DNA of 64,000 nt from Limonium bicolor (taxonomy: Eukaryota > Streptophyta > Magnoliopsida > Caryophyllales > Plumbaginaceae), in assembly GCA_023374045.1 (NCBI GenBank), contig CM041779.1, positions 268,470,131 through 268,534,130 of the forward strand. Direction: 5' to 3'. Each line of letters opens with the position of its first letter. Position 1 is the first letter of the stretch. Below the pieces are notes generated by a model. It was not told where the DNA came from. It saw only the letters and a program-made list of their open reading frames with translations, and ran no database searches. The translations under genes and the position numbers were made by a program. Positions 5,468 to 63,118 of this stretch are shown here, one piece after another.

Positions 5468-5500
5468 ATGAACTCTAGCTCGGATTGTCCTAAGGAAAAA

Positions 5501-6560: not shown

Positions 6561-6565
6561 TAAGT

Positions 6566-6710: not shown

Positions 6711-6753
6711 ATACCAACCAGGAGCATTGGAACGGGTTTCGGTCCCCAGAAGC

Positions 6754-6815
6754 ATCCGAGCATCGTCAGCATCGTCAGCATCATCAGCATCGTCAACATC
6801 ATCACCATCATTAGC
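6754..6815 (+). repeat. Short AGCATCGTC/AGCATCATC repeat
   Basis: Tandem 9-bp units alternating AGCATCGTC, AGCATCATC and AACATCATC. Confidence 0.8.
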
Positions 6816-6837
6816 ATTTCAACATCCTTGCATTTGC

Positions 6838-7125: not shown

Positions 7126-7232
7126 ACGCAACTTATCGGATTTCAATTGCATATGGGGTCTTTTAAGATCAAAAGTTTTGGGGTATCACTCAAGCATCAA
7201 CTAGCCTTTTCATTTCCATTACAAAAACTAGT

Positions 7233-7247
7233 TGATGGGGGGCAATC
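7233..7247 (+). promoter_or_regulatory. Polypurine tract of the nested element
   Basis: TGATGGGGGGCAATC directly before the 3' LTR, the primer for plus-strand DNA synthesis. Confidence 0.8.
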
Positions 7248-8999: not shown

Positions 9000-9004
9000 C
9001 ACCC
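9000..9004. repeat. Target-site duplication, right copy (CACCC)
   Basis: Matches 647-651. Confidence 0.93.
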
Positions 9005-11990: not shown

Positions 11991-12179
11991 CTAATTCAGT
12001 TCACAAACTTTATAAGTACACAGTAACAACACGGCTAACATACTTCAAAACAACGTCGTTTTATTCATTAACATACTCCTTACACCACAAGTAGGTTTAC
12101 ATTGTCGACTTAGCTAACATATAGCATCCTTAACATAAAACTGTTTTCACCCATTACATGGTTACACAAGGCTTTAGAA

Positions 12180-12913
12180 TTACCGAAATGTCAAATTTAA
12201 ACGTCCGGGTTTCATGTGTGTGGCATTGATTAATGTCGGAGGTGCAATATTCAGTTTGATCTTCTTGATACTGTGATATAGTATCCTCGACTACCCACCC
12301 ATGATTAATACATCTCCTGACTTTAACACCAACTTCTTTGCGAGATCAGCACGCTTCTGCTAGCCATATATAAACACTACGGTATCACCAATGGACCAAG
12401 ACACCACGGGTACTCCCTTACTTAGAGACTCGGGTGTTTCGTCCTTATCTTGGTGTAAACCTAACCGTCCACCTTTCTGGTAGAAGTTCAAAATACACAA
12501 ATCTGCTTTAACACTCGGAATTGGATCCGATTCAACTCGCTGAGAAATTCCCACGGCGTGGTTAATGACCGCAAGGAACTCATCAGGTATCCTTGGTACT
12601 GTTGCTCAGTCTTCCGCTCGCACGTCGTGATATGTCTTGGTGTAAGGATTCCAGTCCTTTCCCATGCACATCATCTTCAACTTCATCTTCGACCCATTCG
12701 GGTATTCGGGTGTGTAGAAACCTCCAGGTGCTACTCCCAGTTCGTCGCATTGTCGGATGATGTGGATTTGTGCTTCGGGTGTCAGGTATCCATTTAATAA
12801 TATCATACCTGGCTGGATAACCTGACATTGCTCCCTCGGGAATTCGATGATGCTGATGGTGGTTTCTTCGGGGTTCGGTGTGGGAGGGATTGGATGACAA
12901 ATATTGAAGGTTC
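12180..12913 (-). pseudogene. Element A AlkB-domain exon (2OG-Fe(II) dioxygenase, ALKBH1-like)
   Basis: One continuous frame of about 244 codons with no frameshift but three in-frame stops (TGA near 12605; TAG near 12360; TAG at 12291-12293). The N-terminal part carries FNICHPIP, QPGMILLNGYL and GGFYTPEYPNGSK. The core has LCILNFYQKGGRLGLHQDKDE: the NxY-type 2OG contact and the HxD iron ligands (12438-12455). Then come VVSWSIGD, SGDVLIMGG, the distal His in LYHSIKK, and the C-terminal RPGRLNLTFR arginine motif. This order matches plant ALKBH1-like AlkB proteins, which remove methyl groups from nucleic acids. It is flanked by a likely acceptor (CCTTAG before GAACC) and by Gag and protease exons. 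It is conserved in element B at 49933-50670. Confidence 0.88.
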
Positions 12914-13058
12914 CTAAGGTTTAGAATTATCTAACTTAGGTAAATTATACATTATACTTTAACTTTTTACTTATATAATTGTACATTTGGACTTGCTAAC
13001 CCTCATGCATGAAATGCGGTAAGCAGTCAATTATCTCACTCAACAGTTTAAGTAGTAC
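12914..13058 (-). other. Likely intron between Gag zinc-knuckle exon and AlkB exon, element A
   Basis: AT-rich 145-bp gap. Minus-strand donor CCAG|GTACTACT and acceptor AACCTTAG|G. Its position matches the 133-bp gap at 50671-50803 of element B, with the same CCAG|GTAC donor. Confidence 0.6.
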
Positions 13059-39226: not shown

Positions 39227-40293
39227 CTAATTGGTAGGAAGATTTGTCTGGTTCTGCTGATCATGAACTTCTTGATGATCCACCAACTTCAATTTCACAT
39301 CAGCATTTGCGTTTGACCCTGTCTTTACCACAATCGATGTTTTTTCTACATCATCCGGAGCGGCAGCAACACTCTGCGAACCAGTCATCCTAGCTAAGAT
39401 GACAAACGACATCCCACCGAGCACATTATTCACCAATCTCAACACAATCACAGAGCTCTTAAACACAGCTGACGGCAACACCCTAGCAAGAAGAAACTCA
39501 GCCCATTTAGCGTCCCATCAAATCTACTCAAATTACTACTCAAACCCATATGAAGCGCCCATGTCGTGGCATTCAACAGAGGCGGCGGGGGTTTATTCGG
39601 CGACTCAAACTCTGGATCCATCTTCTTCCTCACAGAGATCAATCCGTTAGATATCGCAGTCCCCACTAATCCGGCGGCAAACCCAACACCAGCGAATAGT
39701 ACACCCTTGTAGACGAATGTCCCCAATCGGTCTAAAAGCCCAAATGCTCCCGGTTCGAACATGTGGCTGGTGGGACAAGTGGCGAAGATGGATGGGAGAG
39801 TGGATGAAGAGGAGGCCATTGTAGGTGCGAGGAGGTACATTAAGACAAAGTTCATGATGGATCCGACAATTAGGGTGGAGAAGACGAAGTCGAGCTCGTT
39901 TAACCCGAAGTTCGGGCGGGATGCCATGTCGCCGAGGACGCAGGCGCTGACTCCGACTAATTCCTCCATCAGAACCTTGAATGGGAATTGGGGATCTGCG
40001 GTGACTCGGGATTTCCAGCCCTTGAGGAAGAAACCGAATGGGCCAAAATTGTCGTGGCGAGATGAGTCATCGGGGTTGTTATGTTTACCAAAACCGCCAC
40101 CACCGCCGGATCCTACCAGTGCCCATGTTGCCTCGCCAATGATTCCGCCGTCGCCGGTACTGGCGCATGGGCGGAAGGAGGATTTGGGAAGAAGATATAG
40201 GGTTTGAGGATGCGGAAGGGAGATGCGGGATGTGAGATCTCGCGAGGAAGGAAATGACGAGTTAGGGGGTGGATTGGCAGAAAGCGGGAGCAT
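39227..40293 (-). pseudogene. RETICULATA-RELATED (DUF3411) chloroplast protein gene, one frameshift
   Basis: The only host gene recognised. The minus-strand ATG at 40293 is the first in frame after an upstream TGA. The first 45-50 residues are Ser/Pro-rich with few acids, fitting a chloroplast transit peptide. Then a Gly-rich linker and the DUF3411 region: PQFPFKVLMEELVGVSACVLG, FGLNELDFVFSTLIVGSI, membrane segments near residues 140-160 and 195-215, and KKMDPEFESPNKPPPPLLNA. At about 39503 one G is missing in AATGGG-CTGAG; the next frame continues with LPSAVFKSSVIVLRLVNN and GGMSFVILARMTGSQSV to a stop at 39227. The match is closest to the RER3/RER4 type (about 360 residues); family members act in the chloroplast envelope and affect leaf mesophyll development. 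No intron is seen. A six-base in-frame oddity (LSRFDGTLNG for the usual LRYQTLNG) lies just before the shift. Sequencing error or true decay are both possible. Confidence 0.85.
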
Positions 40294-40700
40294 GGTTGGT
40301 GGTGGTGACGGCGGTGGTGGTTGGTGAGAGGGGAGTAACGTAGCTGAGACATAGTAGTCATCTCTGTAGCGACCGGCAGCAGCCTATTCACAGAGATTGA
40401 GGGACGGGAGAGAAACTGATCGGCCTGATCAGTCTACTACCTCCACTTTCAGTGCCAAATCAATGAATTCGATGACAGGAAAAGTAGGGTAAGAAAAAGA
40501 TAACTCTGTTAGGTTTTCCAACTAGAGAAGAAAACAAGAGTTGGTAGTCTTTGAGATCTCCGGGTGGGCAAGGTTGGCGAAAGGTAGAGGGACGGGCCCA
40601 GATTTTAATTTTACTTTGTTTCTAAAAGCAATCAGATCAGACGGCAAAGTCGCGATTTTTTTCTTTCAGCATTAGTAACAAGCAGAAACTTTGTAATTTA
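40294..40700 (-). promoter_or_regulatory. Upstream region of the RETICULATA-RELATED gene
   Basis: Pyrimidine-rich on the coding strand close to the ATG (CACCACCACC near 40295-40325), as plant 5' leaders often are. The promoter should be here, but no TATA box can be assigned with confidence. Confidence 0.4.
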
Positions 40701-41964: not shown

Positions 41965-44900
41965 TGTAACACAGCCCATAAAGCCTATCGTGTGTTATCG
42001 CAACCTTAGCACTTAATCGAATACGTCGCAGCGGAAATAAACAATACCTGGACCTTGCCACGGTCTGATCGTTAGAATATACCGGATTTACATTTACAAT
42101 ACTTAACCAAAATACTTATCCCACTCAAAACATCAGCATCCACAATCCCTCAACCAACCGAGTACTAATATCTCAAACGTAATTAAACTTACAACAGTTA
42201 ATATAACAGTCGGGTGCACAGGCGCAACCGAATTCAAAAATAATGTCCCCTCCTAAGTCTAACCGCTCCTATCTAGTGCGTGTGCCCTCATGGGCCTCTT
42301 ACCAGTAGTGTAAAAATAGCCCCCGAGGGGGTCAGCACGAATGCTGGTACACCCTCTCATGGCCCCCAAGCTAACGGGGCTACGACGACTAATTGTCGAT
42401 AGCATGGAAATTGATTACATACACAAACATAATATGAAGTGCATTAATAACAAAACCACAGATGAACATATATAGTTCACAAGCAATGAACGACTCTAGC
42501 GTTCCCTTAACAAGTGGGTTAGTAACCCCTCCTTAGTCCTCATTTCCTTAATCTCAGTTCCTTACCTTACCTTATTCTTAATCTCAATCTTAATCTTAAT
42601 CTCAGTATACAAACCTTTCCTGGAAGGGATTGGTTGTAGCTTAATTCGAACTGGGATTTAGGTGATCCCACCGCCACCATCTTAATGCCACCTACCCTGG
42701 ACGGGAGTCCAGCGTAGCTGAGCCGGCAACCGGCCCTAGGCTACAAGTCCGAAGACAAGTCCTTAAGCGGAGGGCGGATCTGATTCAGATACCGTCCCCC
42801 TTTTCACTTAGCATGCATGACCGGAGATCGGTCCCGGGTTTCCTCACTCAAGTTCCAGTTAGTAGACATCTTAAACACCATGTGCTAGTTAAGCCTCATC
42901 GGGCATTAACCAACAACCATCAAACTTAACTCTTATTCTTAAATCAGTAAGTACTAAACTTGGTTAGTAACCATCTTAAGCCTCGCGGGTTAGTGTAAGG
43001 ATAACACAAACACAACGAGAATAAATATAACCGGTTGCATGCTTTATCTTGTTTTAGTCATAGCAAATAAACAGATAGCACACAAGCCGAGGGACACCTC
43101 GTTAGCAAGCAGGTCACGAAAAGGATTGTACCGTTCACCGTCGATCGTTGTTTGTTTAACCTCCTTCGGGGTCCCAATTCACAAACCTAAAACATTCATT
43201 CATTTTTAGGTTATTAGTTATTTGCACCTTACTTAACTCACTTAGTCCCTAAGGACTTCCATTCAATAACCTCTCAAGTCTTTATCTCTTAGTCTTACAA
43301 CTTAACTTTAAACATTAAACTTATACTTAATCTTAACTTAATTCCTCAAGTTCTTAGGGTCCCAATCATTACTACCCTACCAAGGGCATACCTCATTACC
43401 CATTACCATTTTAGAAATTGAAATTTCTTTTTTTTATTTTTAGGCTCGACCGGACTTACCGACCGGACTTGCCAAGTCCGGTCCATTCCAGTACCTTTTA
43501 CCGTTGGAAAATTCACTCCGACCGGACTTACACGTCCGGTCCTATGTCCGGTCGATTCCAGAGACTTATAATCCGTACTAAATTCATGCCGACCGGACTT
43601 GACAAGTCCGGTCCCATGTCCGGTCCATTCCAGAAACATTTTCCCTCTCACAAAACAAGCCCGACCGGACTTGTAAGTCCGGTCCCCCAAGTCCGGTCGA
43701 TTCCAGAAACATTTCCCGGTAGTGTAACAGAGCCCGACCGACCTTGCAAGTCCGGTCCTAAGGTCGGTCGGCTCCAAAAACTTGTTTCTAAATTCCTTTT
43801 CAACTCCAAACTTCTCCTCATATATCCTCATATGTTATAACCTCATTTGGGCACCTCAAATACACCTTAAGCCCTACTTAAAATACCTTAAATCATCCAC
43901 CAAGTTTCACCTTAGTCATTATGCATTTTCCTTGCATTAATGCTAACACTTGTAATGTTTTCCTCTAGGTTTCTAGGTGGTGGTTCATACCTAATGTAAC
44001 CACTATGCCAAATGTTTCCTCACCACTATGACATCATCTCCCAAGCATCTCTCACTATCTAAAACTCTTTTAAACATTTACTTAAGGTTCCTTAACAAGT
44101 TAAACTTCCATCATCATCACATTATTTCCTTCCTAGATGTTTACCAACTTTTACCTAAGTTCTAAATACTCAAATACATTCTCTTGATTCATAAATCCTC
44201 CATGGTGATACCTAAGTCATTAAAACACCTTAACTTCACCCTTTTTCACCAAGACAATATCTAGAACATCCTAGTACCTCCTTAGTCATTAAATCCCCTT
44301 AGAATATCTTAAACACTTAAACTCTCCTTTAAATTTTGCCATAGGTTCTCTAGTATATAATACCTCCTATCACATGGTTTTTCCCCATCAAACAGCCAAT
44401 ACCACACAAATTCTTATCACAACACTTATCACACAATTTTCACTAAAACTTCACCACATCATCAAATAGTGCTCAACTTAAAATGCTTGGCACTTAGGCC
44501 CTTAAATGACAATAATCTTAACCACTGAATTTCCACATATATATGCCTTCAACCTGCAAATACATTCAACAAGGCTCCCATTGAAATAAAATGCTTCTTG
44601 TACTTCACCTTAACATTCTTAAACTATCTCTTTTCTCATGTTCCTTAGTCACAAGTTCACAAGAATAGTCATTGTTTCTCCTAGGTTTTATAGCACCTTC
44701 CCAATATAAACTCTACACTAAACTCATCACATACCCATATCTCATTCCCTTAAACAACAAGACAACTTAAGGTAAGTAATTTACCTTGTTTTCTCACAAG
44801 CTTACAAGCTTTCTCCTTAGGTTTTCTTTGTTCAATCTCGGTCACCAATGTGATTCTCCTTGCCAATGTTCTAACCAATATCCAATGACTCCAATGAGTA

Positions 44901-46091
44901 CTAGATAACACATTAACCCTAAGGAACAAACCCTAGGTTTAAAAATATGTTTTAAGGTATTAATGTGATTGTTTTACCTTGGTTTTCTCAAGACAACTTG
45001 GATGTGAAGCAAGAAGGACCTCCTCTCTCCTTTGAAGAGTAGAAACAAGCTAGAACAAGGCATAAACATGGAGTCCCATGAGTATATATTTTCGGTCAAG
45101 TGAAGAAAATGGTGGAAACCTAGATTTTCTTACACTTTCTTTACCTTAAGAGAATGGAGATGCCAATGGAGTCTCCAAACTTGAATTTCCTCCTCTAATG
45201 GTGGTTTGACTTGGCACCAAAATGAAGCTCTTGAAGTTTTGAAAAGATAGGAAGAAGGAGCTTGAGCTAACTAAGAGGAATATGTATTTTGTTTTGGATT
45301 TGGAGCTTAAATGAGCAAGTGGTGTGCAAGAGAAGGTGGAGCTTTCATGGAGGTGAGCTCTACGTGAATGGAGAAGAGAAAGAGAGCAAGAAATCGTGGG
45401 CAACAAGGGAAAATGAAGAAGTGAGGAGAGAGGTAAGCAAAAGTGATATTTATCTTAAAAGGTGAATAGTGTTTTATGCTTTATAACTTACTTATTTGCT
45501 TTCTCTTTACTTAGTTAGATAAGTGTGGTGAGTCACACTTAAAGAAACCGGCCCCCTTTAGTGAATGAGGGTAGTTTAGTCTTTGTTGACCAAATGTCTC
45601 ACTTATATAGACTTATGTTATAAACTAGCTTAATAAATTCACTATTCATCAAAACAAGGCACATTGTTGTGAAATTTTTGATTTCCCATTGATATAGACC
45701 TCCAAATGTGATACTATATAGTACACATATTAATTAAAGAGTAATGATGGACATTTAGCCATTCAAAACTCATTTACAAGACAATTTTTCAAAAGCGTGC
45801 TTTAAGACTCCTTAAAGCACATTTTGTGTTTTAACTTGTTTTCAAGCTTGGTTTTCTTTGGTAATTGATTTAAAATGACCATTAGGATATTACTAAGGTC
45901 TTAGAACAATATTTGGGTACTCTCCCATGTCTCTCCAAGCTTAGAGCACGTTTTTGCTTAAACTGCTCTTTTTGGTGTTTCCTTATATTTTCTTTGATTA
46001 GAAATGTTTCTTAATGTTTCTAAGGCATTATTTAGCCTCCTTATATCTTAGTTTATCATTTGAACACCATATCTAAGTTTGGGGTATTTCA
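41965..46091 (-). repeat. Element B 3' LTR (4127 bp)
   Basis: Starts TGTAACACAGCCC and ends TTGGGGTATTTCA. Pairs with 52441-56584. Contains the hairpin array 43440-43775. Open frames over that array on both strands are by-products of the repeats. Confidence 0.93.
43440..43775. repeat. Hairpin-unit array in element B 3' LTR
   Basis: Five units. The usual unit is GACCGGACTT (left arm), a short loop, then AAGTCCGGTC once or twice, and the tail [CG]ATTCCAG. The last unit uses GACCGACCTTG with AAGGTCGGTCGG. The copy in the other LTR is at 53915-54255. Confidence 0.88.
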
Positions 46092-46108
46092 ATCTACCCC
46101 CCTTAAAG
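46092..46108 (-). promoter_or_regulatory. Polypurine tract of element B
   Basis: The minus strand reads CTTTAAGGGGGGTAGAT immediately before the 3' LTR. Confidence 0.85.
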
Positions 46109-46400
46109 GAACTTTGTCCTCAAAGTTCACATGTGTTTAACCATTCACGGTACACAGTTCTCTTAATCTTAATACCACATCTTATATTCACATTCATACA
46201 TCTCAAGACTCAAAGGTCAATCTCAAATACAATACATAAGTATCATACATAACTCAGACTTACACCGAAGTGTAGCAACTTACACAAATCCACATCTTAA
46301 ACAACCAAACAAACGACAAACATGATCGTTTCCTAACTCAAAAGCGAGGAAGCTCTACCCCCCTTAAAAAGGGGTACGCCCCGTACCCTATACAGACGAT

Positions 46401-47951
46401 CTAGTCAGTAAATAAAGAAGGGTACTTCGCCCTCATCTTATCCTCTAATTCCCACGTGGCCTCTTCGACATCCTGGTTAGACCAGAGAACCTTCACCAGT
46501 CGCACTGACTTGTGGCGAGTGTCCCTAGTCTTTCTGTCCAAGATTCTCTGAGGAGTCTCCACGGATCTCATATTTGGTTCTAAGGTCAACCTCTCAGGTT
46601 CTAACACATGGGAGGGGTGGTGCATGTATTTCTTTAGCTGTGAAACATGAAAAACATCATGCACTTTACCCAGCTCAGCAGGTAAATTCAACCTGTAAGC
46701 AACCGGGCCCACCCGCTCCGTAATCTCATAAGGACCACAAATTTCAGGCTTAACTTGCCCTTCTGCCCAAACCTGAATACACCCTTCATCGGTGATACTC
46801 GCAGAAATACCTGGTCGCCCACTGCGAACTCCAGGTCCCGTCGTCGAACATCAGCATACGACTTCTGCCTATCTTGAGCAGCTTTCATGTTCTCCCTGAT
46901 TTGCTGAACTTCAGCCTTAACTTGCTCTAAGTACTCTGGTCCTATGATGACCGTCTCACTCGACTCATCCCAGCAGAGCGGTGTACGACATGGTCTACCA
47001 TACAACGCTTGAAAAGGTGCCATCTTGATCGAAGCGTGATAGCTGTTGTTGTATGAAAACTCGATCAGATGCAATCTGTCAATCCAACTGCCCTGGAAGT
47101 CTAAGGCACATGCTCTCAGCATGTCCTCGAGTGTCTGGATAGTACGCTCAGTCTGACCATCTGTCTGAGGATGGAACGCGGTACTCAGTTTGAGTTCTGT
47201 ACCCAACGCTTCTCTGGTAGCTCTCCAGTACCTCGAAAGGAATCTGGTATCTCTATCTGACACTATGGTCTTTGGTGTGCCGTGATGCCTCATGATTTCT
47301 TTCTCAAATAACTCAGCTAATTTGGTCACCTTCCAAGTATCCTTCATCGGTATGAATCGGGCTACTTTGGTAAGGCGATCCACCACCACCCATATCATGT
47401 TGAGACCTCCCCTAGCAGGTGGAAGCCCAACTACGAAGTCCATGGAGATATCATGGAACTTCCACTCCGGAACTGGCATCGACTGTACCATTCCGCCCGG
47501 TCGTCTGTGCTCGAATTTCACCTTCTGGCATGTGAGACACCTCAAGACGAACTCGGTAACATCTGTCTTCATTCCCGACCACCAGAAGTATCTCTTCATG
47601 TCTTTATACATTTTAGAGGCTCCCGGATGGATGGAAACTGAAGAACAGTGTGATTCTCTAAGTATACGGTCTTTCAGATCCGTGTTACCTCGTGGTATGC
47701 ATAATCGGCCCTTAAGTCTGATCAGATCATCATCATGAAGTCTGAAGTCGTATTTCTGACTCTCAAAGGTACCATCTGTCAGCTTCTGTCTGACCTCTCT
47801 CATATACTCATCAGTCCTCTGAGCCTCTCGCACCTCATCAACCAAGCTGGAGTAAGAAACTAGCGAATGGAGTGAGTGTGCTCGACGGCTCAGGGCTTCT
47901 GCTACAACATTGGCCTTCCCTCTTTGTATTGGAGGTCAATGTCATAGTCTT
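46401..47951 (-). CDS. Element B pol, second half: RNase H end, integrase, chromodomain
   Basis: A minus-strand frame from about 47951, with a shift near 47850-47950 linking it to the RT part and another near 46700. Integrase features in order: HCSSVSIHPGASKMYKDMKRY with CLTCQKVK (HHCC zinc site), DDE core with [29 protein letters not shown] and STAFHPQTDGQTERT, then [11 protein letters not shown]. The tail in the shifted frame contains [14 protein letters not shown], then a chromodomain with VEEATWELEDKM and the end YPSLFTD. It inserts cDNA, probably targeting heterochromatin via the chromodomain. Both shifts are single-base events, so the sequence may be functional or nearly so in reality. 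Confidence 0.92.
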
Positions 47952-49777
47952 TCAAAATTCTAACCATCTCCTCTGTCGAAGATTTAACTCCTTCTGAGTG
48001 AATATGTATTTCAAACTCTTGTGATCGGTGTAGATCGTGACACTAACCCCATATAAGTAGTGGCACCATATCTTCAAAGCGAAGACTACAGCTCCCAGCT
48101 CTAAATCATGTGTGGGGTAGTTCTCCTCATGTTTCTTCAACTGGCGTGAGGCATATGCCACCACCTTGCCATGTTGCATGAGCACGCAACCCAGCCCTCT
48201 GCCGGATGCATCACAATAAACCTCAAAGCCCTCTGTACCGTCTGGAATAGTCAATACCGGTGCAGTGGTCAGTGAGTCCTTCAAGCGCTGAAATGATCTC
48301 TCACAGTCAACTGTCCATAGAAATGGTGCATCTTTCTTCATCAGACTGGTCATCGGCTTCGCGACCTTGCTGAAATCTCTCACAAACCTCCTGTAGTAAC
48401 CTGCCAGACCGAGAAAGCTCCGGATGTCGGTAACAGTCTTCGGCCTTGGCCAGGTACGTACGGCATCAATCTTTGCTGGATCCACTGCGATCCCAGCATT
48501 TGAGATGACATGACCTAGGAAAGAGACCTGGTCAAGCCAAAACTCACACTTGGAGAACTTAGCATATAGCTGGTTCTCCCTTAATATTTCCAACACCCTT
48601 CTCAAATGTTCCTCATGCTCAGCCTTAGACTTTGAATATATCAATATATCATCAATAAAAACCACCACCGACTTGTCCAGCTGCTCCCGGAACAAGCGGT
48701 TCATCAGATCCATAAACTTCGCTGGCGCGTTCGACAAACCGAACGGCATCACTGTAAACTTATAGTGGCCGTATCGTGTCCGGAATGCCGTCTTCTCAAT
48801 GTCTCCCTCCTTAATGGCTATCTGATGATACCCCGATCTGAGATCAATCTTGGAAAACACAGATGCTCCCTTCAACTGATCGAACAGATCGTCAATGCGG
48901 GGTAGTGGGTACTTATTCTTCACTGTCACTGCATTCAACTCTCTGTAGTCGATGCAGAGGCGGAGACTACCATCCTTCTTCTTCACGAAGAGGACTGGCG
49001 CTCCCCACGGTGACACGCTTGGTCTAATGAATCCCTTATCCAACAAATCTTTCAGTTGTTCCTTTAACTCAGTCATTTCTGCCGGAGCCATACGGTATGG
49101 TGCCTTGGCTATCGGTCCGGTACCAGGTAGCAGCTCAATGGTGAACTCTACCTCCCGAGTGGGTGGCATGCCGGGCAGTTCCCGTGGAAATAAGTCGGGG
49201 AACTCCGACACTACCGGTAAGTCGGGGTCGAACTCAGGGTCTCTCTCTATGTCCTGTACATAGCAGAGGTATACTTCTTCCTTTCTCCTTAATTCTCTAT
49301 GCATTGCCATGGCGGTGATGATCTTAGTCGAAGGCTCTCTGGGCCTCTGGCGGTATGATATTGTTACCCCAGACGGACTCCTGAGCAGCAATCTATGCTC
49401 GGCGCAGAGGATACGTCCCTTGTGCCGCTCCAACCAGTTCATCCCGAAGATAACATCAAATCCTAGCTTGCTGAACTCAATGAAAATGACTGGGAAGTCT
49501 TCCCCCTTAATTCTGATGGTGGCTCCTCGGTAGTAACGAGTGCAACGAACCTTCTCCTTAGACGGGAGCGTAACCGTGAAGTCGGGTAGCTCATCAGCGT
49601 CTAGCCCCAACCTGCTCGCAAATGATGCAGAGACAAAGGTATGCGAGGCCCCTGAGTCGAAGAGAACTGGTGCCTCAATCCCATTGATCGGAAAGGTGCC
49701 GGTGAGGATAGTACCGCTAGCGTCGGCCTGTGCCTCTGTGAGTATGCTTAGTGCACCTTCCGTACCGAGTCCATGAC
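47952..49777 (-). CDS. Element B pol, first half: protease, reverse transcriptase, RNase H
   Basis: A continuous minus-strand frame. The likely exon start at 49777 follows the acceptor CACAATTAG. Protease has [12 protein letters not shown]; next are the linker [16 protein letters not shown] with [34 protein letters not shown] and the catalytic [13 protein letters not shown], then FLGHVIS and [14 protein letters not shown]. RNase H has [35 protein letters not shown] and [14 protein letters not shown]. It ends at a stop at 47952 through a one-base change; coding resumes in the next frame. The exon phase fits direct joining to the Gag zinc-knuckle exon. Confidence 0.95.
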
Positions 49778-49932
49778 CTAATTGTGTTCACAAGCTCCAT
49801 GAGTATTGATGGTATAACAAGAGTCGTAACAATTTATATGAACAACACTGTTATTTTATTTATGACCATCCTGTTTACAACATGTGCTTCAAACTTACAT
49901 CTCATTTCTCATCTCATTCTAAAATTACATGG

Positions 49933-50670
49933 CTAATATTGTCTAAAGGTTAGGTTTAATCTTCCTGGTCTCATATGCGTCGCATTGATTACTGCTGACG
50001 GTGCTGTATTCAGCTTGACTCTTTTAATCCCATGGTATAACATCCTTGATTATCCTCCCAAAATTAATACATCACCTGACTTAAGTATTATCTTATCTGC
50101 ACGGTCCGCACGCTTCTGCTCGCCGTATAAAAACTCCGCATCATCTCCAATGGACCAAGACACTACGGGTATCCCTCTTTCGAGAGACTCCGTTGTCTCG
50201 TCCTTATCCTGGTGTAGTCCCAGTTTCCCATCTTTTTCGTAGAAGTTTACAATGCAAATGTCTGGCTGGATGTCTGGAATCGGTTCAGCTTCCAACTGCT
50301 GAGCGATTTCCACGACTTGTTTAATAACTGGATGGAACTCTTCGGGTATCCCCGGTGGTGAGACTCCATCTTGCTCCCTTGTGGTTTGGTAATTCTTGGC
50401 ATACGGATTCCAATCCTTGCCCAAGCTCATCATCTTAATTTCATCCTTGCTCCCCTGGGTACTCCGGTGTGTAAAAACCTCCCGGTCCCATTCCTAGTTG
50501 ATTGCATCTCCTGATGATGGCTATTTGTGCGTCGGGTGTCAGGTATCCCCTTAATAAAATCATACCTGGGCGGATAACCTGACATTGTTCGGTTGGAAAG
50601 TGTGTGGTTTCGATGTCGGTGTGCTCCGGGTTAGATGTAGATGGTATAGGGTAGCAGATGTTGAATCTTC
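49933..50670 (-). CDS. Element B AlkB-domain exon (2OG-Fe(II) dioxygenase, ALKBH1-like)
   Basis: Minus strand. After the acceptor CCACTTTAG it reads FNICYPIP, QVIRPGMILLRGYLTPDAQ and GGFYTPEYP; one net frameshift follows near 50450, then MMSLGKDWNPYAKNY. The core has ICIVNFYEKDGKLGLHQDKDE (NFY contact; HxD iron ligands at 50197-50214), VVSWSIGDDAEFLYG and SGDVLILGG. A TAA (50050-50052) interrupts, after which the same frame gives SRMLYHGIKR (distal His) and RPGRLNLTFRQY (2OG-binding Arg motif), then TAG at 49933. AlkB enzymes oxidatively remove N-methyl groups from RNA or DNA using iron and 2OG; plant ALKBH1-type proteins are the nearest family by motif. It lies between gag and protease, as in element A. 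It may be made as a Gag-AlkB fusion. Confidence 0.9.
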
Positions 50671-50803
50671 CTAAAGTGGTAGTAGGTTATGTCTTACTTA
50701 GGTTCTAATGTCATCTTATTTTCACTTAACTCATATATTTCACCAAACATGCATGATAATGCGGTAAGCAGGTAGTTTTACTACTAAATAGTTATAGTGG
50801 TAC
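50671..50803 (-). other. Likely intron between Gag exon 3 and AlkB exon, element B
   Basis: 133 bp, AT-rich. Minus-strand donor GCCAG|GTACCAC and acceptor ACTACCACTTTAG|G. The donor leaves one base (G) of a codon; the AlkB exon begins GA, completing GGA. Confidence 0.62.
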
Positions 50804-51144
50804 CTGGCCTCGATGAGGGCTCAGGCTCATCGTCCCGATCCACCATGTGTAGAGTGGGCCCCGTCTTCTGGGTCGCCCGTGGGTTCTTGTCCGCCGGCTG
50901 CTGCACTTTCCTCTGACCGTCAGATCCAGCTCCCTGATCGGTCTTGCCCTTGCCCCTAGTGTCGGGCCTATAGGCTCTGCTAGCAGGGTTCCGGTAACAC
51001 TCGTATGCCCGGTGTCCATACACTCCGCAGAAGTTGCACTCCACTTTGTTTCCCTTACAGTCGAGCCGGGGTGGTCCTTGTGACACCATCGACAGATGAA
51101 GCGTCGCTGGTAGCCACCACCGGCTCCCCTCTCAGTCTCAGATC
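50804..51144 (-). CDS. Element B gag exon 3: CCHC zinc knuckle (nucleocapsid)
   Basis: The minus strand encodes FICRWCHKDHPG, then in the next frame LDCKGNKVECNFCGVYGHRAYEC, whose second half is a perfect CX2CX4HX4C knuckle. A Lys/Arg/Gln-rich tail follows (RGKGKTDQG), ending EPEPSSRPG. One base is missing between the two parts (near 51065). It binds the element's RNA. 341 bp, like its element A counterpart. The exon ends in a donor shared by the AlkB and pol joins. Confidence 0.78.
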
Positions 51145-51226
51145 CTGGTGATTCATATTGTCAATTCTCATATCTCAAACGGTTACTAATTTTATTTCTT
51201 ATCTCATTCAATATCAATTTCCTTAC
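51145..51226 (-). other. Likely gag intron 2, element B (82 bp)
   Basis: Minus-strand donor CCAAAGG|GTAAGGA and acceptor AATCACCAG|GATCTG. The same length as at 13400-13481. Confidence 0.65.
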
Positions 51227-51479
51227 CCTTTGGCGCCTTAGAGCGCAGGGGTGTAGCTGCAATCGCGTAAGTCAGCTTCAATGGCTCTTCCGAAGCCTTC
51301 TCCTTTTCCTCCTTCCCTTTCGGGTTCTGATTCTTCTGGGCCTGAGGCTGGTACTTCTGTTTCTTGTACCCTCCTTGCCCTTGACTCTCTGAGCTCTTAC
51401 CGGCACTCTTCCTCTTAGCATTCTCCTCGTCCCTCAGCTGGACGGTAATCTCAACCTTAGCAGCGGCATGATAGCACTC
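51227..51479 (-). CDS. Element B gag exon 2
   Basis: The minus strand reads ECYHAAAKVEITVQLRDEE, then a Lys/Gln/Glu-rich stretch (NPKGKEEKEKASEEPLKLTY), ending LRSKAPKG. It is a charged linker between the Gag body and the zinc knuckle; no domain is recognised. It joins exon 1 in frame if the intron runs from 51565 (or 51541) to 51480. Confidence 0.62.
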
Positions 51480-51565
51480 CTGCTTTTCCATGGTATTAGT
51501 CATACTTATTCATCATAACCTAAATCTTATTCATCACTTACTCGATTCTCAATCATTCTTATTAC
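51480..51565 (-). other. Likely gag intron 1, element B
   Basis: 86 bp with donor TTGCAT|GTAATAAG and acceptor GGAAAAGCAG|GAG; a branch-like GACTAAT lies 20 bp upstream of the acceptor. An alternative donor (CGA|GTAAGTG at 51541) is also in frame. Element A has a gap of similar length here, but its donor is lost. Confidence 0.5.
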
Positions 51566-52207
51566 ATGCAAGGTAGTGTAACTCGTCGGCCCCATGCCGT
51601 AGCGGAGTCGATGGCTAAGCCCGCCATAGAAGCGGTCTACCAAGATCTGGTCAGAATACCCTAGACCTGGCAGAAGACGGAGCAAGGCGGTGAACTCTGA
51701 GTAATACTCGTCCACCGTCATCTTGTCCGACTGCTTAAGCGCATCTAACTGCAAGTGCTTCTTCGTCTGGACATGGGCGGGGTAGTACTTTGCCCGTAGC
51801 AAGGCGGTGTACTGCTCCCAGCCGAACTCTGGGTTGGCCACATGCTCGGCCCTCACCAGCTTCCACCAGTCGCCCGCCGCCCCCTTCAGGTAGAAAGCAG
51901 CTAAGCGCACCTTGATCCCAGCAGGGACATCAAGGGTCTCGAAGGCGGTCTCCAGCTCGGAGATGTACGCCTCAAGCTTGGCGGGATCGGTCTCCCCCTT
52001 GAAATGTGCGGGTCGAAGATCTGACAGACTCTTCACCCAGTTTGGTTCCCTAGGCTGTGGCGGTGGAGGCGGTGCACCCACACCAGGCTGATAGCCCATG
52101 TGCCCTAAAGCGGCAGCTACGATCTCTGCGATCGTCTGCCCTCCAGGTATCCCTGGAATATCCTCACCCCGGCCGCGACCTCGGCCTCCTCTAGGGCGTC
52201 CTGCCAT
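51566..52207 (-). CDS. Element B gag exon 1 (capsid region)
   Basis: ATG at 52207 on the minus strand, 218 bp from the primer site. An Arg/Gly-rich start (RGGRGRGRGED), a Pro-rich linker, then the retrotransposon Gag region: WVKSLSDLRPAHFKGETDPA, KLEAYISELETAFETLD, FYLKGAAGDWWKLVRA, FGWEQYTALLRAKYYP and MTVDEYYSEFTALLRLLPG. It forms the particle. The frame is open, with no stop until the likely intron. Initiation at this Met fits the element A copy, which starts the same way. Confidence 0.9.
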
Positions 52208-52424
52208 CTGAACAAGCGTAACTTACATTAGATTCACATTCACCATTGTTTGGTTAGTAAATTTATAACGTCCGTAGACGGTAAAGACAATCCACACTTA
52301 TTAGTGGTCATCTGACTCTACTCACTCTAACTTCTCACACCCTTAACCCAATACTTATTCCTTAGCTTATATCCTAACTCGGTGGTCACTCATGTCCGGT
52401 ATTTCTTGATCAGAGCGTAACTAC

Positions 52425-52436
52425 GCTCTGATACCA
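52425..52436 (-). promoter_or_regulatory. Primer-binding site of element B (initiator tRNA-Met)
   Basis: The minus strand reads TGGTATCAGAGC, 4 bp from the 5' LTR. Confidence 0.93.
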
Positions 52437-52440
52437 CTTT

Positions 52441-55400
52441 TGTAACACCCCATCCAAAGCCTATCGTGGTTATCGCAACCTTAGCACTTAATCGAATACG
52501 TCGCAGCGGAAATAAACAATACCTGGACCTTGCCACGGTCTGATCGTTAGAATATACCGGATTTACATTTACAATACTTAACCAAAATGCTTATCCACTC
52601 AAAACATCAGCATCCACAATCCCTCAACCAACCGAGTACTAATATCTCAAACAATCTTAACTTACAACAGTTTAATATAAACAGTCGGGTGCACAGGCGC
52701 AACCCGAATTCAAAATAAATGTCCCCTCCTAAGTCTAACCGCTCCTACTCTTGTAGTGCGTCCTCATGGGCCTCTTACCTGCAAGTGTAAAAATAGCCCC
52801 CGAGGGGGTCAGCACGAATGCTGGTACACCCTCTCATGGCCCCCAAGCTAACGGGGCTACGACGACTAATTGTCGATAGCATGGAAATTGATTACATACA
52901 CAAACATAATATGAAGTGCATAACAATAACCACAGATGAACATATATAGTTCACAAGCAATGAACGACTCTAGCGTTCCCTTAACAAGTGGGTTAGTAAC
53001 CCCCTCCTTAGTCCTCAATTTCCTTAATCTCAGTTCCTTACCTTACCTTATTCTTAATCTCAACTTAATCTTAATCTCAGTATACAAACCTTTTCTGAAG
53101 GGATTGGTTGTAGCTTAATTCGAACCTGGGATTTAGGTGATCCCCCCGCACCATCTTAATGCCACCACCTACCCTGGACGGGAGTCCAGCGTAGCTGAGC
53201 CGGCAACCTCCCCTAGGCTACAAGTCCGAATACAAGTCCTTAAGCGGAGGGCGGATCTGATTCAGATACCGTCCCCCTTTTCACTTAGCATGCATGACCG
53301 GAGATCGGTCCCGGGTTTTCTCACTCAAGTTCCAGTTATTAGACATCTTAAACCCATGTGCTAGTTAAGCCTCATCGGGCATTAACCCACCCCATCAACT
53401 TAACTCTTATTCTAAATCAGTAAGTACTAACTTGGTTAGTAACCATCTTAAGCCTCGCGGTTTAGTGTAAGGATAACACAAACACAACGAGAATAAATAT
53501 AACCGTTTGCATGCTTTATCTTGTTTTAGTCATAGCAAATAACAGATAGCACCACAGCCGAGGGACACCTCGTTAGCAAGCAGGTCACGAAAAGGATTGT
53601 ACCGTTCACCGTCGATCGTTGTTTGTTTAAACCTCCTTCGGGGTCCCAATTCACAAACCTAAAACATTCATTCATTTTTAGGTTATGTTATTTGCACCTT
53701 ACTTAACTCACTTAGTCCCTAAGGACTTCCATTCAATAACCTCTCAAGTCTTTATCTCTTAGTCTTACAACTTAACTTTAAACATTAAAACTTATACTTA
53801 ATCTTAACTTAATTCCTCAAGTTCTTAGGGTCCCAATCATTACTACCCTACCAAGGGCATACCTCATTACCCATTACCATTTTTAGAAATTGAAATTTCT
53901 TTTTTTTTATTTTTAGGCTCGACCGGACTTACCACCGACCGACTTGCCAAGTCCGGTCCATTCCAGTACCTTTTACCCGTTGGAAAATTCACTCCGACCG
54001 GACTTACACGTCCGGTCCTATGTCCGGTCGATTCCAGAGACTATAATCCGTACTAAATTCATGCCGACCGGACTTGACAAGTCCGGTCCCATGTCCGGTC
54101 CATCCATTCCAGAAACATTTTCCCTCTCACAAAACAAGCCGACCGGACTTGTAAGTTCCGGTCCCCCAAGTCCGGTCGATTCCAGAAACATTTCCCGGTA
54201 GTGTAACAGAGCCCGACCGACCTTGCAAGTCCGGTCCTAAGGTCGGTCGGCTCCAAAAACTTGTTTCTAAATTCCTTTTCAACTCCAAACTTCTCCTCAT
54301 ATATCCCTCATATGTTTATAACCTCATTTGGGCACCTCAAATACACCTTAAGCCCTACTTAAAATACCTTAAATCATCCACCAAGTTTCACCTTAGTCAT
54401 TATGCATTTTCCTTGCATTAATGCTAACACTTGTAATGTTTTCCTCTAGGTTTCTAGGTGGTGGTTCATACCTAATGTAACCACTATGCCAAATGTTTTC
54501 CTCACCACTATGACATCATCTCCCAAGCATCTCTCACTATCTAAAACTCTTTTAAACATTTACTTAAGGTTCCTTAACAAGTTAATAAACTTCCATCATC
54601 ATCACATTATTTCCTTCCTAGATGTTTACCAACTTTTACCTAAGTTCTAAATACTCAAATACATTCTCTTGATTCATAAATCCTCCATGGTGATACCTAA
54701 GTCATTAAACACACCTTAACTTCACCCTTTTTCACCAAAGACAATATCTAGAACATCCTAGTACCTCCTTAGTCATTAAAATCCCCTTAGAATATCTTAA
54801 ACACTTAAACTCTCCTTTAAATTTTGCCATAGGTTCTCTAGTATATAATACCACCTCCTATCACATGGTTTTTTCCCCATCAAACAGCCAATACCACACA
54901 AATTCTTATCACAACACTTATCACACAATTTTCACTAAAACTTCACCACATCATCAAATAGTGCTCAACTTAAAATGCTTGGCACTTAGGCCCTTAAATG
55001 ACAATAATCTTAACCACTGAATTTCCACATATATATGCCTTCAACCTGCAAATACATTCAACAAGGCTCCCATTGAAATAAAATGCTTCTTGTACTTCAC
55101 CTTAACATTCTTAAACTATCTCTTTTTTCTCATGTGCTCCTTAGTCACAAGTTCACAAGAATAGTCCATTGTTTCTCCCTAGGTTTTATAGCACCTTCCC
55201 AATATAAACTCTACACTAAACTCATCACATACCCACCCATTCTCATTCCCTTAAACAACAAGACAACTTAAGGTAAGTAATTTACCTTGTTTTCTCACAA
55301 GCTTACAAGCTTTTCTCCTTAGGTTTTCTTTGTTCAATCTCGGTCACCAATGTGATTCTCCTTGCCAATGTTCTAACCAATATCCAATGACTCCAATGAG

Positions 55401-56584
55401 TACTAGATAAAACATTAACCCTAAGGAACAACCCTAGGTTTAAAATATGTTTTAAGGTATTAATGTGATTGTTTTACCTTGGTTTTCTCAAGACAACTTG
55501 GATGTGAAGCAAGAAGACCTCCTCTCTCCTTTGAAGAGTAGAAACAGCTAGAACAAGGCATAAACATGGAGTCCCATGAGTATATATTTTCGGTCAAGTG
55601 AAGAAAATGGTGGAAACCTAGATTTTCTTACACTTTCTTTACCTTAAGAGAATGGAGATGCCAATGGAGTCTCCAAACGTGAATTTCCTCCTCTTGTGGT
55701 TTGACTTGGCACCAAAATGAAGCTCTTGAAGTTTTGAAAAGATAGGAAGAAGGAGCTTGAGCTAACTAAGAGGAATATGTATTTTGTTTTGGATTTGGAG
55801 CTTAAATGAGCAAGTGGTGTGCAAGAGAAGGTGGAGCTTTCATGGAGGTGAGCTCTACGTGAATGGAGAAGAAAAGAGAGCAAGAAATCGTGGGCAACAA
55901 GGGAAAATGAAGAAGTGAGGAGGAGGTAAGCAAAAGTGATATTTATCTTAAAAGGTGAATAGTGTTTTATGCTTTATAACTTACTTATTTGCTTTCTCTT
56001 TACTTAGTTAGATAAGTGTGGTGAGTCACACTTAAAGAAACCCCGGCCCCCTTTAGTGAATGAGGGTAGTTTAGTCTTTGTTGACCAAATGTCTCACTTA
56101 TATAGACTTATGTTATAAACTAGCTTAATAAATTCACTATTCATCAAAACAAGGCACATTGTTGTGAAATTTTTGATTTTCCATTGATATAGACCTCCAA
56201 ATGTGATACTATATAGTACACATATTAATTAAAGAGTAATGATGGACATTTAGCCATTCAAACTCATTTACAAGACAATTTTTCAAAAGCGTGCTTTAAG
56301 ACTCCTTAAAGCACATTTTGTGTTTTAACTTGTTTTCAAGCTTGGTTTCTTTGGTAATTGATTTAAAATGACCATTAGGATATTACTAAGGTCTTAGAAC
56401 AATATTTGGTACTCTCCCATGTCTCTCCAAGCTTAGAGCACGTTTTTGCTTAAACTGCTCTTTTTGGTGTTTCCTTATATTTTCTTTGATTAGAAATGTT
56501 TTCTTAATGTTTCTAAGGCATTATTTAGCCTCCTTATATCTTAGTTTATCATTTGAACACCATATCTAAGTTTGGGGTATTTCA
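52441..56584 (-). repeat. Element B 5' LTR (4144 bp)
   Basis: Starts TGTAACACCCC and ends TTTGGGGTATTTCA. It aligns along its whole length with 41965-46091; differences are largely one- or few-base indels. Promoter and leader of the element; no TATA box could be assigned. Confidence 0.93.
53915..54255. repeat. Hairpin-unit array in element B 5' LTR
   Basis: Counterpart of 43440-43775, with a few small indels. It lies in the leader half of the LTR on the transcribed strand. Confidence 0.85.
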
Positions 56585-59309: not shown

Positions 59310-61849
59310 TAAAAAAGGGCCCCTGAAATACCCCAAACCTTGATATGTTGTTTAAATATTAAAATATGGTATTTAAGGATAAAAAGTTCCTCATAATATC
59401 AGTGAACAATTTAAAACATAGTAGAAACAATAAAGTACCATAAAGACAATTTGAGTAAAAACATGCTCTAAGCTTGGGATAACCTTGGTTAAGACTCAAA
59501 GAGCTTGCCAAGACTTTATTAACGTGAAAAATATGATTTTATAAGGCTAATTAAGTTCTTAGAAAAATGGTATACAATTTAACCCAGAGAAACACAAGAA
59601 AACACACCATAAAGTCAATTTAAAACAAATACTTGCTCTAGACTTGGTGTAACCTTGTATAAGACCTAAAGGTCATTCCTAGACCTTATTTACATGTTAA
59701 TGAACATTTTAAATCAATTCCCAAAGAAAACCAAGCTAAAAAACAAGATAAAACACAAAATGTGCTTTAAGGAGTCTTAAAGCACATTTTTGAAAAATTG
59801 TCTTGGAAATGAGTTTTGAATGGCTAAATGTCCATCCTTACTCTTTAATCAACATTTGTAATACTTAGTATCACATTAGGAAGTCTAAATCAATGGGAAA
59901 TCAAAATTTTCATAATTATGTGCACTAATTTATGAATAGTGCTCAAATAGTGCTAGTTTAAGACATAAATCAACTTATTTAATTAAATAGTCAACATAAG
60001 CCATGAAATATCTTAAGTACTAAAGAGGGGGCCTGTTTTTAAGTGTGAGTCACCACACTTGACTAGTTTAATTAAAGGGAAGAAAAGAAAAGCAAGTAAA
60101 GGAAGTTACTTTTTACATAAATATCTTGTAAAAGCTTGCCTCTCACCTCATTTCTTTCTTTCCCACTCATTCCCACAATCTTCATCCTCTTCCTCCCTTT
60201 TCCAAAGCCATTTTGCTACAGTTCACCCCCATTATTGATCTTCTTTTACTTGTAACTCATAGCTCCATGCTCCAAATTCAATTTCAAGACGACCTTTATC
60301 TTAGTTAGACCAAGCTCTTCACTTCTATCTTTTCAAATCTTCAAGAACTCAATTTTGGTGCCATAGAGAATCTCCATTGAAGGAGGAAAAACTCATCTCT
60401 TCACACCTTGTGTTCTCCTTTGCTTCAAGGTAAGAAAAGTCAAAGAAAATTCACATTTCCTCTCATTTTCATACATGGCTGAAAATCACCATTAGTGATG
60501 CCTTGTCTTGCCCATTTTAGTAGCTTGATTCAATCTTCAAAGGACTAGGAGGAGTCCTACCTTGTTTCTTAATCAAGCTCCCTTTCAAATTCCAAGGTAA
60601 ACTTCCATTTTAGTGTTTTAAAAACACTTATGTAAATTTAGGTTTATATGTGAGTTTAAGTATGAAACTTAATGCTCATTACCCTTGTATGTGTATTAGT
60701 TAGAAGATTGACAAGTGATAAAAGCTCCTTGTCGATTTTCAATCAAGAAAGAACAGAGAAAAACAAGTGAGAAAATCTTAAAGAGAAGAGGTAAATAACC
60801 TATCTTAATGTAATGATGTGTCTTAGGAAATTGAGCTTTGAGAATGCTTAATAAAGAACCTAAGGATCCACTGGGAAATGAGTTAGTAAAATATCCACAA
60901 GGTGGTTATTAAGGGCATATGTGATGTTATGTGTATTTGCAGGTTAAGGCAATTATTATGTGGGAAATTCAGTGTTTAAGATTAATGAAATTTAAGGGCC
61001 TAAGAGCCATGTTATTTAAGAGCCTAAGTGCCAAGCAATTTAGTTATTGCACTATATTGTGATGTAGTGTAGTTTAAAGGTTTAGTTGTGTGTAAAGAAC
61101 ATCTCTTGTGAAGGTGAATGTCTTTAATGGTTAAAGGATGAAAAACCATGTGTTGTGTGTAAGAATGTGTATTAAGGGATTGAGTGTTCTTGGATTGTTT
61201 AAAAGTGAAAAACTATGTGTTTTGGTGTAAGGTGATACAAGAGAAGCTATGTCAAAATTTGGTGAGTAAACAAGGAGTTTTAGGTGTTTAAAATGGAGTT
61301 TGGTGACCTAGGTTGTACTATGAATGGTTAAGGTTTAAATTGGTGAAAGAAAGTGAGTTAAGGTGTTCTTAAGTGTTAAAATGTCTTGGGCATTGTCTTG
61401 GAGGTTTAGTGAGCGAATGGGTGATTTCAAATACACCGAAGTCATGATAAGTGTGTTTGTACTTGTGCAAAATTTGGTAAACAAAAGAAGTGTAATGCCT
61501 TGTGAAGGTTTAATTATGAACTTGTGGGAAAGACTTGAGGAGTGTGTGTAAAGGGGATGTGTGTGATGCAAAATGATGCTTTATGAGTGGTTATCTTATT
61601 GTGGAAGAACACTTTGGTTAGTGGAAGTTTTAAGCAAAATACAAGTTACAAGTGTAAGGTAAAATGTTCTAAGTGTTAAGGATTTAGTAAAAGCTTGAGT
61701 AAATGTTTAAGGAGTTTTTGGGATGATTAGAGAGGGTTTTAGTGTGCCAAAAGATGTTAAAACATGTGGGAAAACATGTGGAATGCTTAGGAAATGATTG
61801 GGTTGAAATTGGAGTTCAAAATGAGAAGAAAAGCACTTTGGAAAATGGG

Positions 61850-61975
61850 GTCTGTTGTGGACCGCCCCTAGGGACCGCCCCTATGGGGAGGTCCAGTGGA
61901 ATTCTGTAGGTGAATGTAGTTTCTGTTGTGGACCGCCCCTGGGACCTCCCCAGAGGGGCAGTCTAGACCAGACCA
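61850..61975. repeat. Hairpin-unit array in the third LTR
   Basis: Two units, each reading (plus strand) CTGTTGTGGACCGCCCCT, a second GGGACCGCCCCT or GGGACCTCCCC, and the opposite arm GGGGAGGTCC or GGGGCAGTC. The architecture (two like arms, one opposite arm, a short tail) matches the arrays in elements A and B, but the stem sequence differs. Confidence 0.75.
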
Positions 61976-62672
61976 GAGAGAAAGAAAATTTGTTTAAGGC
62001 TTCTAATGATGGGGGATTGGATGGTAGTGGTTTTAGATGATGTTTAGGCCTTGTTTGGTGACATCTAAAGGCCTTAAAAAGTGTAAACAGGTGTTAGGTT
62101 GATGTGAGAGTTGTGAACTTAAGATCACAAGAGTAAAATTAAGTATAACGGGATGACGGGGTTAACTATGGGCGCATTAGTCGTTAAACAATCATATTAA
62201 GTTAGTTAATGGAAGAATTGTATATTATACTTGTTGTAGATTATTGGAAGAGATAATAATGACAGACCACAAACAATAGAGTGGACCTTGGTGACAGGTA
62301 TGGTTTTCTTGCAGCCTGTGTTCTACCGGATTACACCGGCTTGTGTGCCAACCTGTTTTTCTGTGTGTTTGCCACCTTGCAAGAATAAGCATGAAATGAG
62401 TTGACAGTAATTCATTTATGTGGCGTACTTGGTTCCGATACCGTTTAACCTCAAATATGTGTTTAACCTTAGCTAACCGACTCTAGGATCACATAAGAGA
62501 TCGATATTCGGATTTAACGACCCAAACCATGGGAACGTTCTAACCACGGCTATGCGTGAGTTAGTTGTGTGTTGTTTGTGCGTGTAAGTATGTTTACCTC
62601 CCTTGTGTGTTTGACCTGGTTGTAACACCATATGGTATATGGATGTGATAGGTTCCATAATGGAGTTCTTAA

Positions 62673-62692
62673 CTATATATATATATATATAT
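62673..62692. repeat. (TA)n microsatellite
   Basis: About ten TA units. Confidence 0.9.
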
Positions 62693-63118
62693 TAATGGGG
62701 GTGAAGAATCCGGTCGTTCTGGTCGCGCGTTGTTTGGGAGTTGGAATCCATATTTGACTTACCTTCCTCTCTGTTATGTTATGGTTGTTTTCCCTTCTTG
62801 GATTACAATCACTGGTAAGCTTAACCAAAGCTTACCTACCTCGATTATTGTTCGGGGCAAGGGGGATATGTGTATAGTGTGAACGGTTCTATATTAAGCC
62901 CGAAATATCTAAGTAAGTGTGTACGGTGTGTTTGGAACTATGTATATCCGACACATCTTAAGTAAGTATACATTCTCTAAGTGGAACAATAAATTATTGT
63001 GTAACGAGTTTAACATGGGAATAGAAAGATTCTCTAGGCTCCAAAGAGAAAACTAACTCTCATCTTGGGGTACGAGCCCTCACGTGACTCTCCCCGAGTT
63101 ATGTTGTATGTATGTTAA

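Follow-up and report, generated by a model that had tools for sequence, protein, structure and literature searches.

A predicted ALKBH1-type AlkB domain between gag and protease in a large Ty3/gypsy chromovirus family of Limonium bicolor

How does an exon for an AlkB-type dioxygenase come to lie inside a plant retrotransposon, and what could it do there? The question is raised by a 64,000-nucleotide stretch of the Limonium bicolor genome, here called the window, in which two copies of one element family, A and B, carry such an exon.

The AlkB exon and its surroundings

In copy B the AlkB exon (2OG-FeII_Oxy_2, plant ALKBH1 type) occupies 49933..50670 on the minus strand. The motifs listed in the initial annotation are all present in the sequence, namely NFY, LGLHQDKDE, YHG and NLTFR, together with the N-terminal PGMxLL and GGFYTPEY. 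PF13532, the Pfam profile proposed for checking this assignment, matched the core frame 50050-50493 with an E-value of 4.7e-26 and 92.6 bits (cut-off 31.2), so that the lack of an AlkB profile match, which had been named as evidence against the reading, did not occur. The C-terminal piece (49933-50037) gave 1.1e-4, below the cut-off, and the N-terminal frame (50441-50686), taken alone, had no Pfam match. The borders of the exon also held, since 50670 is the first base past a TTTAG acceptor and 49933 the final base of a TAG stop codon; the initial annotation did not mention, however, that the AlkB of copy B is defective. It is split over two frames by a frameshift (overlap 50441-50493), and a TAA precedes the YHG motif.

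The element around the exon, of 14,620 bp (41965..56584), was delimited by its LTRs and domain matches and lies, with all of its parts, on the minus strand. It is flanked by ATACT and ATACA, alike in four of five bases, which we read as a target-site duplication. The 5′ LTR (TGAAATACC...GTGTTACA; 4,144 bp, 52441..56584) is followed by the primer-binding site TGGTATCAGAGC (52425..52436), which we take to be of the initiator-tRNA-Met type, by a gag capsid ORF (51527..52222; PF03732, Ty3_capsid), by a middle open frame of gag that has no Pfam match and is possibly a separate exon (51204..51509), and by the CCHC zinc-knuckle frame, which runs to a predicted splice donor (50804..51131; CCHC matches below the Pfam cut-off). 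Beyond AlkB come protease, reverse transcriptase and RNase H (47952..49777, in an ORF of 47952-49787), the integrase open frame (46688..47935), the integrase C-terminus with a chromodomain (46401..46850), and a polypurine tract (46092..46104) adjoining the 3′ LTR (4,127 bp, 41965..46091). The earlier placement of AlkB inside an element with both LTRs, between gag and protease, thus agrees with the LTR pair and the domain order. LTRs, primer-binding site, polypurine tract, gag and the order protease, reverse transcriptase, RNase H, integrase are those of Ty3/gypsy elements, and the PF00385 chromodomain after the integrase, at 25.3 bits just over its cut-off of 25.1, is that of a chromovirus; the clade may be Tekay/Del. 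The LTRs differ at 54 of 4,095 aligned positions (K2P 0.0133), which at a rate of 1.3e-8 corresponds to an insertion about 0.5 million years ago. The LTRs thus make element B young although its AlkB is defective, so that it was either mobilised in trans or damaged once inserted.

Copy A is more diverged and differs from copy B at about 27% of the DNA over the aligned internal region. Its AlkB exon (about 12174..12913, minus strand) is in one frame with several stops, and is preceded by a short intron (12914..13058, minus strand) predicted from a donor and an acceptor equivalent to those of B; a predicted long intron (11991..13058, minus strand) ends at the distal acceptor AATTAG^GTTGTGC. One stop, in GG*SR, is common to A and B and was considered as a conserved recoding site or as inherited decay. 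Both were rejected because at this site A-type relatives have Q and B-type relatives E; we therefore read the two stops, a TAG in A and a TAA in B, as independent. A CTGCTTACCGCATT.TCATGCAT block is identical in the short introns of the two copies (50749-50771 and 13005-13026, minus strand), and the other intron sequence aligns poorly. Elsewhere in the window, a nested element lies inside element A (651-9002; LTRs of about 1.77 kb, 98.3% alike), partial copies of LTR-like sequence of the AlkB-element family lie on the plus strand at 59324-63982, and an open frame at 39448-40383 (minus strand; 311 aa), host-like in character, presumably encodes a relative of the RETICULATA-related chloroplast proteins.

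Abundance, enzyme type and origin

The genome that contains the window (2.92 Gb in 2,686 contigs) gave 38,325 first-look candidates in a PF13532 search. All 150 that were scored pass the cut-off, and 149 of them have no internal stop. A codon pattern for LHQDKDE, which leaves out variant copies such as LHQDRDE, occurs at 17,026 sites genome-wide (4,755 with a CTN leucine and 12,271 with TTR), and the reversed control pattern at none; together with the 150 Pfam matches, this excludes chance. If each site stands for one LTR-plus-internal unit of about 10.5 kb, the family makes up, as a rough estimate, some 6% of the genome. At C1:1430339-1461716, C1:7387137-7418973 and C1:497439466-497470353, AlkB copies are regularly spaced at about 10.0-10.6 kb, as would be expected of tandem LTR-internal arrays.

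The linkage of AlkB to the element was determined from the protease side. A protease motif of the family has 9,435 sites genome-wide. Of the 84 that fall in contig 1 up to 16.9 Mb, 61 have the AlkB motif 524-602 bp upstream on the same strand (about 1 expected by chance; 0 on the opposite strand and 0 downstream). From the 23 protease sites lacking the motif we fetched 20, and tblastn found AlkB in 18 of them, one with a weak match (L170, E 3.5e-7), and none in two. AlkB is therefore present at 79 of the 81 protease-marked copies examined; the motif-based part of this count depends on exact motifs, a choice that the 20 tblastn cases escape. The converse count over the same 16.9 Mb finds the exact protease motif downstream of 61 of 142 AlkB motif sites. 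Among the 20 top-scoring copies fetched, a pol frame follows AlkB in every one, and in 16 the script also recognised a gag frame ahead of it. Thus AlkB belongs regularly to this very large element family, and absence of the segment from all other family members, the second finding that had been named as speaking against the reading, was not what we saw.

The type of enzyme was assessed with an open copy (L083), which matches PF13532 with 169.6 bits over residues 1-194 of 194. Among sequences of solved structures its closest match is rice ALKBH1 (5xeg, 240 bits), followed at a distance by E. coli AlkB (83) and human ALKBH1 (47), and no ALKBH5 chain appeared in this PDB sequence search at E<=1. 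The structure prediction suggested in the initial annotation yielded an AlphaFold model with a pLDDT of 94.4 and a pTM of 0.92, whose closest Foldseek match is OsALKBH1 (TM 0.85/0.92), with E. coli AlkB at about 0.73/0.88 and the first ALKBH5 chain at rank 48 (TM 0.51/0.57). The copy falls below the NCBIfam AlkB equivalog cut-offs (NF011930, 117 of 267 bits; TIGR00568, 102 of 231 bits), as does the Arabidopsis host protein P0187. The Fe/2OG residues are well kept, with N, Y, H and D unchanged in 42/42 copies, the second H in 41/42, and the two R in 40/42 and 40/40, the first H and the D lying inside the motif by which copies were picked. By sequence and predicted fold, the element AlkB is of the ALKBH1/AlkB type and not ALKBH5.

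Three trees (59, 65 and 63 rows) address its origin; three long-branched bacterial rows were dropped after the first and P0007 in the third. The element copies form one clade in all of them (100/99, 94/81 and 95/99), and plant ALKBH1 and the element copies group to the exclusion of bacterial AlkB (100/99, 100/100 and 100/100), in trees composed without animal ALKBH1 and plant ALKBH5/9/10. The element clade is nested within plant ALKBH1. In the first (93/72) and third (86/72) trees it groups with 41 angiosperm hosts to the exclusion of a conifer host, at modest support, and the second tree leaves this placement without resolution. These results suggest that AlkB was likely captured once from a plant host, and they support the earlier proposal that a chromovirus lineage captured a host ALKBH1-like gene. 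The ALKBH1 gene proper to the window genome could not be told apart from the element copies; 87 places were scored, and the three fetched all fall in the element clade.

A bacterial origin was rejected, as the bacterial AlkBs (10, 7 and 7 rows) lie outside the plant-plus-element clade. In a scan of a contig collection, the 80 loci kept of 578 related ones all bear bacterial titles, with at most 47% identity, and include no plant contaminant; a scan of IMG/VR gave two stretches matching a pattern, neither confirmed, and a plasmid collection gave no match. The relatives P0001-P0004 (P0003 truncated) are placed among the element subfamilies of the window genome itself, and P0002 (AlkB) and P0241 (a pol frame of 1,095 aa), each on a 26,561-base contig, are probably from one and the same contig. 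A signature K-R-[MVA]-D is found in 14/14 element rows parsed from the second tree and in 0/38 parsed host rows, which mostly have R-D-x-D; L173, in the third tree, has R-R, and E. coli AlkB has K-R-N-D.

Predicted splicing and candidate functions

In this family gag and pol are not in one frame. The zinc-knuckle frame ends at a donor, CCAG^GTA, while AlkB begins at a proximal acceptor and protease at a distal one, TTAG^G[CT]T. In copy B these sites delimit a predicted short intron (50671..50803, minus strand; donor CCAG^GTACC, acceptor TTTAG^GAAG) and a predicted long alternative intron from the same donor (49778..50803, minus strand; acceptor AATTAG^GTCATGG), which would excise AlkB and join gag to protease in phase. 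Equivalent sites for both are present in other copies. In the 20 top-scoring copies the gag end at the donor is readable in 19, always at gag phase 1; the proximal acceptor is in phase in 18/18 cases located by the script, whereas L098 and L099, the two remaining copies, show AAAG^GAACC; and the distal acceptor was found in 20/20 and is in phase in 17 (L105 is out of phase, L108 ambiguous and L102 unread). The second sample of 42 copies gave 31/31 readable for the gag phase, 16/16 located for the proximal acceptor and 25/27 readable for the distal one, two of the 27 distal junctions being out of phase; in both samples the copies share ancestry, so that these counts are not independent trials. 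Where it was located, the short intron measures 122-147 nt and leaves every remainder modulo 3, which together with the kept phases indicates that the frame is held across a stretch of drifting length.

The stretch from the proximal acceptor to PGM comprises 32 codons, of constant length in all six copies that the script could parse, out of nine, and its differences fall 127/125/269 on the three codon positions. It contains no ATG in the B type, and in the s1 type one Met near its end. Constant length and third-position variation suggest that translation likely enters upstream of the first ATG, and we infer that it runs from gag across the junction into AlkB. The splice sites thus predict two products, Gag-AlkB and Gag-Pol. 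An annotated Gag-AlkB fusion (about 434-1,380 aa, over 60% identity) was not present among the best 120 of 298 matches. In the same top-scoring copies (L091-L110), gag itself seems to be split by two more short introns, at oriented positions of about 1,100-1,600, the place that corresponds to the middle open frame of gag in copy B. One, CAG^GTA..AG^GA[AG]TG, was located in 18/20 copies (phase 0; 89-105 nt, with every remainder modulo 3), and the other, AAGG^GTA..TAG^, in 17/20 (phase 1; 76-89 nt), of which one copy carries a stop immediately upstream; the scripts found neither in window copies A and B (gag of B, 51204-52222).

Taken together, we propose that the chromovirus AlkB, probably captured once, would be expressed as a spliced Gag-AlkB protein, packaged, and used to demethylate template, primer or cDNA, a reading to which we give even weight for and against. 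The single donor at the end of the zinc-knuckle exon would be joined either to the proximal acceptor, giving Gag-AlkB ended by AlkB's own stop codon, or to the distal one, giving Gag-Pol. The Gag moiety would carry AlkB into the virus-like particle, where it could demethylate the RNA template, the tRNA primer or single-stranded cDNA, and this demethylation may help reverse transcription and escape from host marking. More specifically, the alternative exon in the gag-pol intron may supply a base eraser that is packaged along with the RNA genome and tRNA primer, acts inside the particle and clears m1A, m3C and 6mA/m6A ahead of the reverse transcriptase, which we put forward as a tentative model, on balance doubtful.

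The possible substrates are deduced by analogy with relatives, rice ALKBH1 and E. coli AlkB. Rice ALKBH1 is reported to act on 6mA in ssDNA in vitro and to be needed for removal of R-loop 6mA, and E. coli AlkB to act on m1A and m3C (PMC10469495); in sequencing practice, AlkB enzymes are described as clearing marks that hinder reverse transcription (PMC8053708). The m6A-RNA substrate, drawn in the initial annotation from ALKBH9B and ONSEN, is by this analogy not the only candidate, because rice ALKBH1, the nearest characterised relative found, is the one reported with ssDNA. Against action in the particle, rice ALKBH1 is reported as nuclear, so that its activity on 6mA in ssDNA does not require a particle (PMC10469495).

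The best-placed alternative is an RNA demethylase, separate or Gag-linked, that would take m6A off the element mRNA, which could then leave stress granules or avoid silencing. The Gypsy-encoded ALKBH5-like protein of orchids is reported to demethylate m6A in ssRNA in vitro (PMC9289625), and a review describes ONSEN RNA as freed by ALKBH9B (PMC12786077). However, the sequence and predicted fold described above are not those of ALKBH5, and the lack of an ATG in the conserved N-terminal 32 codons of the B type argues against a free-standing start, with the caveat of the single Met in the s1 type. On these grounds we consider an mRNA-directed role unlikely, though a serious contender.

A role on nuclear DNA appears rather less probable still. 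AlkB would then demethylate 6mA or R-loops at integrated copies, or repair alkylated cDNA, and so raise transcription or integration, as the ssDNA activity and R-loop role of rice ALKBH1 would suggest (PMC10469495). OsALKBH1 is moreover the closest structure. The predicted Gag fusion instead points to particles, and the amount of 6mA in plant DNA is disputed.

Selection on the domain and comparison with known systems

A third alternative is that AlkB is a passenger, a captured host fragment without function. In its favour, both window copies are broken, and stops or frameshifts occur in most of the 42 copies sampled, a strict test for one open frame being passed by only 7/30 and 7/42 copies. 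The substitution pattern speaks against it. Between window copies A and B, 234 AlkB codons give pN 0.194, pS 0.666 and an omega of 0.136, with dS near saturation, and the differences fall 60/34/115 on the three codon positions. For 24 B-type copies, chosen by a 21-base motif and not for intactness, and taken mainly from the beginning of contig 1, the omega values are 0.195 in AlkB and 0.164 in pol. This leaves out L127, with which the 25 copies give 0.194 and 0.39, the pol value being inflated because the pol segment of L127 did not align. Top-scoring copies give 0.142 and 0.111, a choice that biases both values downwards. AlkB is thus under purifying selection, with a dN/dS of about 0.2, like pol. 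Since dN/dS is 0.11-0.20 at several depths, the catalytic residues are kept and AlkB accompanies 79/81 protease-marked copies, the passenger explanation is already disfavoured and seems very improbable. Retention of AlkB as a regular part of the element is supported by both the linkage (79/81) and an omega (0.195) like that of pol.

An AlkB domain in a plant Ty3/gypsy element was unfamiliar to the initial annotation, but such a case had already been published. In Phalaenopsis orchids, the 2-ODD ORF2 of Ogre/Tat Gypsy elements is reported to encode a functional paALKBH5-like m6A demethylase, and a screen of 121 plant genomes reports that, among LTR-retrotransposon consensuses, only those of two Phalaenopsis species have the 2-ODD domain (PMC9289625); a review of December 2025 names the orchid case (PMC12786077). 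Among the matches listed from the open-licence PMC literature, we found no report of an ALKBH1-type capture by a retrotransposon. The orchid and Limonium elements are alike in being plant Ty3/gypsy elements with large LTRs and an AlkB with intact Fe/2OG residues, but the orchid domain is of the ALKBH5 type and forms the C-terminus of a separate ORF2, in an element of 25.5 kb with gag-pol in one ORF (PMC9289625), whereas in Limonium it is of the ALKBH1 type, between gag and protease of a 14.6 kb element with a chromodomain and predicted introns. The ALKBH1-type domain therefore looks like an independent capture. That both descend from the same capture, as AlkB domains in large plant Ty3/gypsy elements might suggest, is exceedingly improbable, since the orchid domain is described as nesting with ALKBH5 homologs in a separate ORF2 of an Ogre/Tat element (PMC9289625), a description that sets it apart from an ALKBH1-type domain at the gag-protease position of a chromodomain element.

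One capture in orchids could be a curiosity; a second one, of another AlkB subfamily, in another Ty3/gypsy lineage and at another position, suggests that methyl marks are a repeated point of conflict for retroelements in plants. If AlkB does erase bases inside the particle, plant retrotransposons would have independently recruited two AlkB subfamilies for the same war, and one lineage bearing AlkB would have grown to well over ten thousand copies. The predicted use of a single donor for either an enzyme exon or pol would be a new way of setting the Gag-to-Pol ratio while making an accessory enzyme, and because the family is very abundant and selection maintains its AlkB, substrate, packaging and splicing are directly testable.

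Among cellular enzymes, rice ALKBH1 (LOC_Os03g60190; 5xeg, 5xoi) and plant ALKBH1C/D share about 50% domain identity with the element AlkB, and the same predicted fold and residues. The host proteins differ in having an N-terminal region and, mostly, R-D-x-D in place of the K-R-[MVA]-D of the element copies. The AlkB domains found in plant RNA viruses, as in Grapevine leafroll-associated virus 3 and other replicases, likewise belong to virus-like entities, but they have 10-20% identity and lower TM-scores among the models listed, and lie in replicases and not beside gag. For the predicted splicing a parallel is offered by Ogre, where an intron between GAG-PROT and RT is cited as experimentally shown and spliced in part of the transcripts, so that splicing is likewise used to reach the full polyprotein (cited in PMC6317226). 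The same paper describes the region between the two ORFs as short, averaging 172 and 274 bp (PMC6317226), whereas the intron predicted here precedes protease and contains, as an alternative last exon, an entire enzyme domain; gag of the Limonium elements also seems to have two more introns.
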